A stretch of 59,801 bases of DNA from an uncultured Clostridia bacterium (GTDB taxonomy: Bacteria; Bacillota; Clostridia; Oscillospirales; Acutalibacteraceae). Within the stretch, counting starts at the first letter, position 1; each line of letters opens with the position of its first letter. The notes below the pieces were generated by a model. The model worked only from the letters and a program-made list of their open reading frames with translations. It had not been told where the DNA came from and ran no database searches. The position numbers were made by a program, and so were the translations under genes. This document shows positions 56,425 to 59,733 of this stretch, piece after piece. Location: the NCBI GenBank assembly GCA_927362715.1, contig CAKMIX010000015.1:1-59801 (forward strand). Direction: 5' to 3'.

Positions 56425-56514
56425 GCGCAAACGGCGGCGCTTCGACTTACTTTTGCAAGATGTTGCGCTTTGTCTCAAATTCTTGCAAAAATATACAAAA
56501 TTATTCTCGACAAC

Positions 56515-56542
56515 TTGATTTTGACAAAAAATAAGATATACT
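56515..56542 (+). promoter_or_regulatory. Promoter of the regulator-kinase unit of the agr locus
   Basis: TTGATT (56515-56520) and TATACT (56537-56542) with a 16-base spacer. The block ACTTGATTTT through AAAATAAGATATACTTA is nearly repeated ahead of the agrB-type gene. Confidence 0.7.
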
Positions 56543-56654
56543 TAATATATAAAAAAACAAGTCATCTGCAACGCAGCGGGGTATATTTTCCGAGCCGCTT
56601 TGCAAGACTGTTGGCAGACGCAGAACCGCCCAAACGGGTAAAGGGGGAGCAACC

Positions 56655-57365
56655 ATGCGGGTCGCCGTTTGTGACAATGACCGAGCGTTCCGGGAACGCC
56701 TGCTGCGCGCATTGGCGCCGCATACGAAAATTTCGCCTGATGATCTGTTCGACAGCGGCGCGGCGCTGCTTGCGGCGATGCCCGAAAGGGAATACGATGC
56801 CGTGTATCTGGATATCGAAATGCCCGGCATGAACGGGCTGGAGGTCGCGCAGCAGCTGCAGCAGCTTCGCCCGGGCGTGATCATCATCTTCGTCTCCGGC
56901 TATACAAGCTATGTGTCCGGTGCGTTTAAGATCAACGCCTTTCAATATCTTGTGAAAGGCGCTGCGACGGATGAAGAGATCGTTGCGGAGCTTCGGCGGG
57001 CGGAAAAGCGCTATGCCGAGGACCACTACCTGTATACCTTTTATAACCACGCCGAAGCGACCAAGATCCGCATCCAGCACATCGTGTATATCGAGTCCCG
57101 AAACCGGCATTTGTATGTGCACACGAGCGACGGGCAGAGTCATGAATTTCGTGGGCGGCTGGATGCGGAGGAAAACAAACTGCGGCCGTTTCGGTTCGTG
57201 CGTATCCACAAAAGCTATTTGGTCAATATGGCGTATATCGCCCGCATCGGCAAGCTGTCGCTGACACTGGAGGACGAAGCGCAGACGGAGCTGACCATCA
57301 GCCGCACCTATCAGGAAAATCTGCTGCTGACGTACAATACATATATCACCGGGTGCAGCGTATGA
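56655..57365 (+). CDS. LytTR response regulator, AgrA-like
   Basis: The 236-residue product has a receiver domain with the acidic pair near VCDND, phospho-Asp53 in AVYLDIEMPGMNG and Lys101 in FQYLVKGA, followed by a LytTR DNA-binding domain (about 130-236; IVYIESRNRHLYVHTSDG, FRFVRIHKSYLVNMAYI). It pairs with the kinase gene, whose ATG overlaps its stop in ATGA, and is the probable regulator of the agr-type promoters. The upstream gap from 56425 holds a promoter and no gene. Confidence 0.93.
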   Translation: MRVAVCDNDRAFRERLLRALAPHTKISPDDLFDSGAALLAAMPEREYDAVYLDIEMPGMNGLEVAQQLQQLRPGVIIIFVSGYTSYVSGAFKINAFQYLVKGAATDEEIVAELRRAEKRYAEDHYLYTFYNHAEATKIRIQHIVYIESRNRHLYVHTSDGQSHEFRGRLDAEENKLRPFRFVRIHKSYLVNMAYIARIGKLSLTLEDEAQTELTISRTYQENLLLTYNTYITGCSV

Positions 57366-58657
57366 GCAGGGATTATGTATGGATGCAGGTCATCGGCGTC
57401 TTGGGCGAGACGCTCGTGATGTACAGCTTTTTCGACGCGCTTTTGCCCGCGCCGCCGCGCACGCGCAAATTCCGCCCGTGGATGGCGTATCTGCTGTTTG
57501 CCGCCGCCTTTTTTACGCTTAAGATGATTACGGACAATTCTATAGCGGGGATGCTCGGCTTTCTGCTGCTTGCCTTCGCCGTCAGTATGGTCTATGCCGG
57601 GAACTGGAAGAACAAATTTGCTTTAAGTGTGCTGCTGTTTCTGATCTCCGGACTGAGCGAAATGGGCGTGGGCATGGTTCTGGCACTGCAGGCTCCGGGC
57701 AGTGTCGCCAACATGAAAAGTGACACCCTGTTTTATTTTCAGGGCATGTTCATTTCCAAGCTGGTGGAATTGATCATTGTCAAAGTGATTGGGCGCTTTC
57801 GCAATAAGCATGTGTATGCCCTCAAACTGCGGACGTGGTTCGGCATCATGTTGATCCCAATTACAAATATTATCATTACTTATGAACTCTACGATATTGC
57901 CTACCAAAGCAGCGACATGCGAAATAAGTTAAGACTGTTTTTTATCTTTTTGTGTATGCTGGCGACGACTGCCGTAGCGTTCCATTTGTTTGAAAACGAG
58001 CTGAAAATCGTAGAACGGAATGTCCGTCTGGATATGCTGGAAAAGCAGATCGCCAACGAGCAGGCGTATTACAAAGACATTGCCCGCACACAGACCGAGC
58101 TGCAAAAGACCGCGCACGATATGAAAAACGCCCTGCTGGCGGTGCTCGGCACTGTGTCGGACGGCAACGCGCCCGCCGCCGAAGGCAAGCTGCGCGACAT
58201 GCTGCAGGTGGCGACCGACAATCTGCAAACGGTCTATACGGGCAGGGCTACCGTGGACGCCATGCTGAACGTCAAGGCCAGACGCATGCGCGAGAAGCAT
58301 ATCCGCTTTGAGCCGATCTGCTTTCTGCGCAAGGAAATGGCGCTGGACGATATAGATTTCTGCATCTTTTTGGGCAACGCGCTCGACAACGCCATTGAAG
58401 CCTGCGAAAAGCTACCGGAAGAAAAGCGGTATATTCAGTTAAAGCTGTTGGAAAGCGACGGCACGCTCTCGTGCAGCATAGAAAACCCGACCGACGGTGC
58501 ACTGCCCGAAAACGGCGCGCGGACAACGAAGCGCGACCGGCGCCGCCACGGCTTCGGCTTGGAGAATATGCGTGAGATCGTGCGCAAAAACGGCGGCGAA
58601 ATGGAGACGCGCAGTGCAGACGGAAAGTTTGTTTTGTTAGCGGTGTTCCTGCTGTGA
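57362..58657 (+). CDS. AgrC-like GHKL sensor histidine kinase
   Basis: This 431-residue membrane kinase has about six hydrophobic segments (1-210), a coiled region, the phospho-acceptor His252 in KTAHDMKNALLAVLG, and a GHKL ATPase domain with LGNALDNAIEACEK (N box) and HGFGLENMREIV (G box). This is the build of AgrC-type sensors that detect cyclic peptides. It is translationally coupled to the LytTR regulator and lies upstream of AgrB- and AgrD-type genes, so the cyclic peptide encoded at 59593 is its likely ligand. Confidence 0.92.
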   Translation: MSRDYVWMQVIGVLGETLVMYSFFDALLPAPPRTRKFRPWMAYLLFAAAFFTLKMITDNSIAGMLGFLLLAFAVSMVYAGNWKNKFALSVLLFLISGLSEMGVGMVLALQAPGSVANMKSDTLFYFQGMFISKLVELIIVKVIGRFRNKHVYALKLRTWFGIMLIPITNIIITYELYDIAYQSSDMRNKLRLFFIFLCMLATTAVAFHLFENELKIVERNVRLDMLEKQIANEQAYYKDIARTQTELQKTAHDMKNALLAVLGTVSDGNAPAAEGKLRDMLQVATDNLQTVYTGRATVDAMLNVKARRMREKHIRFEPICFLRKEMALDDIDFCIFLGNALDNAIEACEKLPEEKRYIQLKLLESDGTLSCSIENPTDGALPENGARTTKRDRRRHGFGLENMREIVRKNGGEMETRSADGKFVLLAVFLL

Positions 58658-58675
58658 GCCCCTTTCCCAAATTAC

Positions 58676-58704
58676 AACGCCCCAAGGCACAGCCTTGGGG
58701 CGTT
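58676..58704 (+). terminator. Terminator of the regulator-kinase unit
   Basis: AACGCCCCAAGGC (58676-58688) and GCCTTGGGGCGTT (58692-58704) form a perfect 13-bp stem with an ACA loop. Only short T content follows. It separates the kinase from the AgrB-type unit. Confidence 0.8.
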
Positions 58705-58749
58705 GCTGCGCTGTTTGTGCAAAAAAATGCGTTAAAAAGGCAAAAAGAC

Positions 58750-58777
58750 TTGATTTTATCGAAAAATGAGGTATGCT
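58750..58777 (+). promoter_or_regulatory. Promoter of the AgrB-AgrD unit
   Basis: TTGATT (58750-58755) and TATGCT (58772-58777) with a 16-base spacer. It is near-identical to the promoter at 56515. Confidence 0.7.
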
Positions 58778-58857
58778 TATAACATGGAATGTGCTTAATA
58801 ATCACATTTACTGCCGGCGCAGGGGGTTGCGGCGGCACAGGGGAACGGAGGGTTACA

Positions 58858-59520
58858 TTGCTTGCGAAATTGGCGGCCCGTCTTACGGCGCACTTCATCC
58901 GAACGGGCGCGGTGCAGGCGGCGGAACGCGAGGTTTACGAATATCACTTTGAGGTGATGCTGGCGGAAGCGCTCAATTTTGCGGCGCTGCTGGTCGGCGG
59001 GCTTTTGTCGGGGGAGCTTTTGTGCACCCTGCTGTTTACGGCGAGCTTTTTGGTGTTCCGCTCGGTGGGCGGCGGCTTTCATGCAAGCACCCACCTGCGC
59101 TGCTTCTTGACGCTGGCGGCGGTCTACGGCGCACTGCTTTTGCTGCTGCATTTCGGCACGGAAACGCTGCTGCGCTTCGGCGTGGTTGTGATGCTGCTTG
59201 CGGGGACGATCCTGCTGTTCTTTTTGGCACCCGCGGAGCATGAAAACAACCCGATGGAGGAAGCGCAGCGCGAGCGATTGTCCGCGCGAGCAAGACTGCT
59301 GTCGTTGCTGTTCGCGCTGGTGGGGGTGACGCTTTTGTCTGCTATGCCGCAGGCTGCGCCGTGGCTGTTTGCCTGCGTTTACGGCATGTTTTCTGTCGCC
59401 GGGTCCGTACTTGCCGCCCGTATTTTACAAGCGCGCCGGGCAAGAAGCGCCGCGCGTACGGAAGCGGAGCGTGAAAAATACGGTGCTCCCCTCGACCGAA
59501 ACGGCAAAAGAATCGGGTAA
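58858..59520 (+). CDS. agrB: AgrB-like autoinducer peptide processing protease
   Basis: This 220-residue membrane protein has about six hydrophobic segments. The cysteine-protease site reads VGGGFHASTHLRCFLTL: His75 and Cys82 are seven apart, the AgrB spacing. FLAPAEHENNPM is the second family motif. AgrB cuts and cyclises the AgrD prepeptide in the membrane. I chose TTG at 58858 because GGAGGG is five bases upstream; a longer frame begins further upstream without a good site. The AgrD-like gene starts 72 bases after its stop. Confidence 0.9.
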   Translation: MLAKLAARLTAHFIRTGAVQAAEREVYEYHFEVMLAEALNFAALLVGGLLSGELLCTLLFTASFLVFRSVGGGFHASTHLRCFLTLAAVYGALLLLLHFGTETLLRFGVVVMLLAGTILLFFLAPAEHENNPMEEAQRERLSARARLLSLLFALVGVTLLSAMPQAAPWLFACVYGMFSVAGSVLAARILQARRARSAARTEAEREKYGAPLDRNGKRIG

Positions 59521-59592
59521 AACGCCAAGTCTTGTGCATCGTGCAAATGAGGGGATAAAATACAGCCAATCCATTCGAAAGGAGGACGCAAA

Positions 59593-59733
59593 ATGAAACA
59601 GGTCAAACAGACCGGCAAGCTTCTTCCGAAGCTCGCCAAAAAGTGCGGCGACGCCTCGCTGAAGGCGGCGTGCGTTACCTTTTTCTGCCAACCGAAGGTT
59701 CCGGCACAGCTGGACCGCACAAAGCGCAAGTAA
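59593..59733 (+). CDS. agrD: AgrD-like cyclic peptide autoinducer precursor
   Basis: A 46-residue peptide starts at ATG 59593 with AAAGGAGGA eight bases upstream. It has an amphipathic, Lys-rich N-terminal leader (KQVKQTGKLLPKLAKK), then SLKAACVTFFCQPKVPAQL and a basic end (DRTKRK). The C-V-T-F-F stretch followed by C-QPKVP matches AgrD precursors, in which AgrB cuts after a five-residue ring and leaves a tail with a conserved PxxP-like PKVP. The ring would form by a thioester between Cys27 and the last ring residue (Phe31). A further Cys32 follows directly at the cut position, which is unusual. Sequence after 59733 has GC-rich pairing but no clear gene before the window ends. Confidence 0.85.
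   Translation: MKQVKQTGKLLPKLAKKCGDASLKAACVTFFCQPKVPAQLDRTKRK

Follow-up and report, generated by a model that had tools for sequence, protein, structure and literature searches.

A predicted agr-type peptide quorum-sensing locus with a shared promoter element and signs of signal-gene exchange in an uncultured Clostridia bacterium

One contig of an uncultured Clostridia bacterium (GenBank CAKMIX010000015.1, assembly GCA_927362715.1) carries the genes agrA, agrC, agrB and agrD, which together appear to encode a complete agr-type peptide quorum-sensing system. The window analysed is this whole contig, 59801 nucleotides of a 2.17-Mb genome (G000). On sequence evidence the genes would form two units, A-C and B-D, which share a promoter element, and the B-D unit seems to have been exchanged between species; the probability of this reading was put at approximately 0.76. 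Comparisons were made mainly with two further species of the genus, G012 and G019 (public bins CALWVM010000004 and CALWVN010000013). All three genomes are incomplete (99% for G000, 97% for G012, 86% for G019). The genus sample comprised 36 genomes for the AgrB search and 39 for the AgrD search, three of the 39 lying outside the AgrB search.

The four genes named in the initial annotation are all present on the + strand in the order A-C then B-D (Table 1). The agrC ATG overlaps the agrA stop, the gap between agrC and agrB is 200 bases, and all four genes are colinear. In Pfam the AgrA protein matches Response_reg at 65.1 bits and LytTR at 73.8 bits, ie a receiver joined to a LytTR domain. AgrC matches HATPase_c_5 at 82.8 bits and has hydrophobic stretches between residues 10 and 212, which fits a multi-pass membrane sensor with a GHKL kinase. 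With PF04647, AgrB scores 109 bits (cut-off 23), and its His75 and Cys82, seven residues apart, are invariant in all 32 aligned AgrB sequences; we take the role of this conserved pair to be that in S. aureus. The AlphaFold model of AgrB has a mean predicted local distance difference test score (pLDDT) of 95.5, and a comparison of its fold with the PDB gave no match at E <= 0.001. Against PDB sequences, AgrC gave no match at E <= 0.01 and AgrA gave four at E <= 1e-8, all confined to AgrA residues 1-121. The genome contains a single AgrB and, besides agrA, a single LytTR regulator, which is followed by a kinase-like frame as judged by eye. The only Rfam match in the window at gathering scores was a tRNA. 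No published description of this locus was recognised in the extracts retrieved by a literature search.

Table 1. Features of the agr locus. Positions are those of the window.
Feature	Position	Strand	Description	Family evidence
promoter element before agrA	56513-56548	+	ACTTGATTTT-N14-TATACT; -35 TTGATT, 16-base spacer	
agrA	56655-57365	+	response regulator with LytTR DNA-binding domain, 236 residues; Asp53	Pfam
agrC	57362-58657	+	membrane GHKL histidine kinase, 431 residues; His252 in HDMKN	Pfam
hairpin after agrC	58675-58705	+	14 pairs, 3-base loop; possible terminator, no T-run	
promoter element before agrB	58748-58780	+	ACTTGATTTT-N14-TATGCT	
agrB	58858-59520	+	membrane peptidase, 220 residues; TTG start after GGAGGG; His75, Cys82	Pfam
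agrD	59593-59733	+	46-residue signal precursor; predicted ring CVTFF (residues 27-31), then CQPKVP	

A complete agr-type system is well supported by these features. Two results from family models weigh against it. AgrA and AgrC score far below the staphylococcal NCBIfam equivalog models (28.2 of 400 bits and 30.8 of 500 bits, respectively), and the 46-residue peptide reaches 15.9 bits (E 0.011) with TIGR04223, the sole family model that matched it as AgrD, under the cut-off of 19. Annotation using that model alone would therefore miss agrD. The AgrA and AgrC proteins fail the staphylococcal agr orthologue models, and the gene order is A-C-B-D, not the staphylococcal B-D-C-A. The anatomy of the peptide is that of an AgrD: a short lysine-rich start, a ring Cys with four further residues, a P-x-x-P tail, and a position adjoining agrB. 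The tail is presumably similar to that which follows the ring in C. perfringens. The peptide is taken to be real because it is conserved in G019 and G012, at 96% and 89% identity to that in the window. The predicted rings and tails are CVTFF-CQPKVP in the window, CTYIF-HQPKVP in G012 and CVSWF-CQPKVP in G019. This AgrD was found in three of the 39 genus genomes, and the same three carry this AgrB (3/36), so that the loss of the peptide gene from relatives that keep agrB, which the initial annotation had raised as a possible objection, was not seen in any of the three. The AgrB relatives in G012 and G019 are at 90% identity.

A related element, ACTTGATTTT-N14-TATNCT, precedes both agrA and agrB in the window, in G012 and in G019. 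The transcription starts proposed earlier, near 56550 and 58785, fit TTGATT-16-TATACT (56515-56542) and TTGATT-16-TATGCT (58750-58777). In the window, 27 of 36 bases agree between the stretch that precedes agrA and the one that precedes agrB. This score was reached by no shuffle out of 1000 when the upstream regions were shuffled in full, and by one out of 2000 when shuffling was confined to the local AT-rich stretches. With zero mismatches, ACTTGATTTT-N14-TATNCTNA occurs twice in each of G000, G012 and G019, every time before agrA or agrB. A stricter pattern built for the own genome, allowed up to three mismatches, gave two sites there and none in the control. Before agrB in G012 the 13-base core GACTTGATTTTAT is unchanged, within surrounding 60-base windows that are 68-83% identical. 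Two promoters are therefore likely from the sequence, the two transcripts may be fully separate, and the twin elements favour two co-regulated units. The element is clade-specific and a less ordinary part of the locus.

The likeness of the two promoters might reflect no more than two good general promoters in AT-rich DNA, with both units constitutive. The element does contain a -35 and a -10, the local shuffles reached its score once, and G012 taken singly is weak: its two upstream regions agree at 22 of 32 bases, which 3 of 200 shuffles also reached. Other observations count against the main reading more generally. With up to two mismatches allowed, the element gave 6 sites in G000, 5 in G012 and 4 in G019, and the reversed control 0, 2 and 0. 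Eight other colinear loci (L073, L074, L078, L079, L081, L083, L085 and L089) showed no twin element, and of 200 shuffles each, between 66 and all 200 did as well as their best matches; L080 and L096 (overlapping frames), L075 and L101 (A and C on the other strand), and L076, L092 and L097 stood outside this test. Sigma-70 scans of the window, G019 and G012 did not list an agrB promoter, which fell below threshold; the scan of the window includes the agrA promoter, among four sites where shuffles gave an average of 3.0. Inspection of the promoters by eye gave no convincing LytTR-type direct repeat. Against general promoters, conservation extends beyond the hexamers, with the core before agrB in G012 intact, and exact matches occur at this locus only. 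General promoters are for these reasons a doubtful explanation.

The initial annotation had also proposed two transcription units, with a terminator closing A-C. The division gains from the twin element, and there is indeed a strong hairpin after agrC (-34.7 kcal/mol for an 81-base stretch, z -4.3), but it is not a canonical terminator: the T-run is missing, and terminator scans of the + strand did not include it among their terminator-like sites. Its sequence is kept in G019, likewise with no T-run. A single A-C-B-D transcript could accordingly start at the agrA promoter and be supplemented by an internal promoter before agrB, with the hairpin attenuating transcription or protecting the RNA. 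The unlisted hairpins of the window and G019 and the colinear genes with their short gap would suit such an arrangement. It fits less well with the presence of the element before agrB in all three species, and with G012, where agrC and agrB stand approximately 490 bases apart and where inspection by eye shows, after agrC, a hairpin bordered by runs of A and of T, although this hairpin too is absent from the terminator scan list. We regard the single transcript as rather unlikely, if a serious contender, and prefer two units.

Separate movement of the B-D unit is suggested by synonymous divergence. Between the window and G012 this was 0.98 for PTS-IIABC, 0.88 for EI, 1.14 for agrA and 0.66 for agrC (the names of the flanking genes, PTS-IIABC and EI here and FbaA and MurA below, are our own reading of the proteins), compared with 0.18 for agrB and 0.14 for agrD, approximately five- to eight-fold under EI and agrA. 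The agrB ribosome-binding site lies close to where the block of high identity sets in. Between G019 and G012 the value for agrB was 0.24, compared with 0.81 and 0.59 for the downstream FbaA and MurA. Between the window and G019, EI gave 0.058, agrA 0.062 and agrB 0.15, and agrC gave 0.27 as a whole and 0.66 in codons 71-200. A comparison of Mfd for the window was left out, the match being to a different gene at 42% identity. The B-D unit has thus probably moved between species separately from agrA, and the simplest reading of the values is that recombination transferred B-D and, separately, a segment of the AgrC sensor.

Constraint or chance could instead account for the low B-D values in the comparison of the window with G012. 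The exchange is deduced from three metagenome-type genomes, and PTS-IIABC, which lies outside the locus, is also raised between the window and G019 (0.315), so that divergence is patchy in general. Constraint or chance would nevertheless have to produce both the gap between the B-D values and those of EI and agrA, and that between agrB and FbaA or MurA in G019 and G012, and to place the start of high identity close to the agrB ribosome-binding site. We consider this rather improbable, and retain exchange as the preferred reading.

The amino acid changes are concentrated in part. The variable positions of AgrD among the three species are 7, 28, 29, 30 and 32; four of the five fall within residues 27-32, inside the ring or next to it (p 0.0004, for a region chosen post hoc). 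In AgrB the numbers of changes in residues 1-80 and 81-220 were 0 and 21 between the window and G019 (p 0.00006), 2 and 19 between the window and G012 (p 0.007), and 2 and 25 in the third comparison. AgrC differs between the window and G019 at 22 positions in residues 1-200, the sensor half, and at 10 in residues 201-431 (p 0.01). On the other side, agrD as a whole has a nonsynonymous divergence (dN) lower than the synonymous (dS), and AgrC changes were evenly spread between the window and G012 (33 and 37, p 0.90) and between G019 and G012 (32 and 39, p 0.90). The pattern agrees in part with the staphylococcal agr groups.

By homology, AgrB would cut AgrD, using His75 and Cys82, and help to close a five-residue thiolactone, for which Cys-Val-Thr-Phe-Phe, carrying a short tail, is the likeliest sequence. 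Having left the cell, the peptide would bind the membrane half of AgrC, which would autophosphorylate, probably at His252. AgrA would then receive the phosphate at Asp53 and act on DNA through its LytTR domain. The sequence supports agrA and agrC as one unit, and agrB and agrD as a second with a promoter of its own. Because both promoters share the element, AgrA may activate both units, so that receiver and signal would rise together. Going beyond this, the system could be split by function, two units under one AgrA-controlled element, with B-D traded while the receiver stays and pheromone types changing by exchange of B-D together with the AgrC sensor segment. This is a tentative proposal, which we think unlikely. 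If true, it would be a natural two-cassette form of quorum sensing, with sender and receiver each moving and evolving on its own.

Rather than one circuit, the locus might be two neighbouring pairs, with the peptide addressed to another receptor or acting as a bacteriocin and the kinase sensing something else. Such a separation would agree with the unlike synonymous divergence of agrA and B-D, and with five of the 34 loci surveyed below, in which B-D or D-B has no A or C detected nearby (one of them on a contig of 3.8 kb). It is made very unlikely by the promoter element common to both units, by the four genes having stayed together in three species, and by a genome that has a single AgrB and, apart from AgrA, a single LytTR regulator. 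A single circuit is therefore the reading we keep.

The same four-gene order was sought in relatives and is kept in G012 and G019, whose agrA proteins are 69.9% and 98.7% identical to that of the window. Of the 36 genus genomes, 14 had an AgrB match: the present type in three, and in 11 a divergent locus in which C-A runs leftwards and D-B rightwards; in one of these 11 agrA was undetected. The colinear type is thus a minority within its own genus. In the taxonomic order, 394 genomes with a minimum completeness of 80% were searched with the AgrB profile at E <= 1e-12, giving 36 matches in 29 genomes. The 34 that remain without the window's own and that of G007 were classified by hand. Ranked as they were by similarity to this AgrB profile, they are no unbiased census, and genes have probably been missed since the peptides were sought by motif and some loci are near contig ends. 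The arrangements were A-C-B-D in 8, A-C-D-B in 5, B-D-A-C in 6, divergent C-A/B-D in 2, divergent C-A/D-B in 1, A-C-B with no peptide found in 3, C-B with or without D in 2, B-D or D-B alone in 5 and B alone in 2.

None of the 34 was B-D-C-A, and with eight sharing the order A-C-B-D, and regulator-first and predicted two-unit agr loci already published, the claim that the present order is unusual was rejected. The sampled relatives do not as a rule follow the textbook order. An AgrB tree was made from 32 sequences, ie the three of the present type, nine of the 11 divergent and 20 of the 34. A group on a long branch is made up of the three present-type species, and the nine divergent genus sequences form a separate group with support of 90/90. 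The A-C-B-D label requires six changes on this tree, two of them forced by well-supported branches. Gene order seems to be labile, on a tree that is poorly resolved.

The divergent-type loci show further variation at the predicted ring position of AgrD, the residue in the 11 of the genus being Cys in five, Ser in three and Thr in three. Divergent-type AgrD with Thr is found in L034 (5763-5921), L038 (6829-6966), L041 (5803-5952) and L090 (5105-5245), with the rings TTMAF, TFLSF, TTFMY and TLSVF, in turn, before QP. A threonine lactone was not described among the literature matches listed or in the part of one review that was available. In the genus member G001, L038 (3266-9605) has a second agrC-agrA pair beside the divergent agr locus. 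The taxonomic order also has a second AgrD class (L086, L087, L091, L093, L094, L095, L098, L099 and L101), whose G-x-AS-x5-QP-like core points to a serine ring of six residues.

The window contig stops at 59801, 68 bases past the 3' end of agrD, and for that reason the right flank of the locus is visible in the relatives only. In G019 and G012 a convergent frame of 40 residues lies 3' of agrD. As a further gene of the locus it was rejected, being present in 12 of the 39 genus genomes, nine of them without this AgrD (six of the nine matched only at E above 1e-5). Viral contigs yielded no relative. The conserved frame is seen at L022 (10856-10975, - strand) and in the own genome at G000:C30:168-287. 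Its place at the beginning of contig C30 makes C30 the probable continuation of the contig of the window.

A wider regulon for the promoter element was likewise rejected, the exact matches in each of the three genomes being the two agr promoters only. Six of the nine weaker sites, with one or two mismatches, lie inside reading frames of at least 100 codons. Two pairs of these sites are conserved: one, in G000 and G012, precedes an esterase-like gene, and the other, in G000 and G019, an AbrB-like gene; both names are our reading of the proteins, made without a family search, and the genes are not claimed as targets. The copy before the esterase-like gene in G000 (L112, G000:C19:7089-7120) has one mismatch and its counterpart in G012 (L113) two, and may mark a possible further target.

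A complete agr system with the predicted rings CVTFF, CTYIF and CVSWF is hereby added for an uncultured Clostridia genus. Should further genomes bear out the exchange of B-D, the co-evolution of sender and receiver could be tested directly at this locus.

The known systems are compared here as they are given in extracts of the cited papers. In C. difficile R20291 the genes are agrA, agrC, agrD and agrB, for which the authors suggest a single transcript (PMC3754575); the same locus is given as agrB2D2C2A2 in a 2025 primer (PMC12312760). It resembles the present locus in its four-gene clostridial set, with the regulator first, then the kinase and then the signal genes, and differs in having D before B and a suggested single transcript, where the window has B before D and a probable split. 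The agr genes of C. acetobutylicum are predicted as two units, agrBD and agrCA (PMC3754575, PMC12312760), one making and one sensing the signal as here, but with the kinase before the regulator and a six-residue ring, CVLVTL, instead of a regulator-first order and a predicted five-residue ring. C. perfringens agrBD, tabulated without agrCA, has the ring CLWFT (PMC12312760), a hydrophobic five-residue thiolactone such as is predicted here, and VirS has been proposed as its receptor (PMC7492741). The S. aureus agrBDCA locus has the same four functions (PMC10482373, PMC12312760), and a hypervariable region in its agrB, agrD and agrC defines the signalling groups (PMC10482373); its order is B-D-C-A with RNAIII in addition, whereas the order here is A-C-B-D and AgrA and AgrC are remote from the staphylococcal models. 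Within the genus itself, the 11 divergent loci share the A, C, D and B genes with the window (save for the one undetected agrA) but differ in orientation, in an AgrD of the type ANSTTC...QPKAP and in an AgrB only 21-32% identical to the present one. The locus thus combines a regulator-first order and B before D with a probable split into two units. Its less ordinary features are the twin promoter element and the B-D exchange, the latter a probable event.

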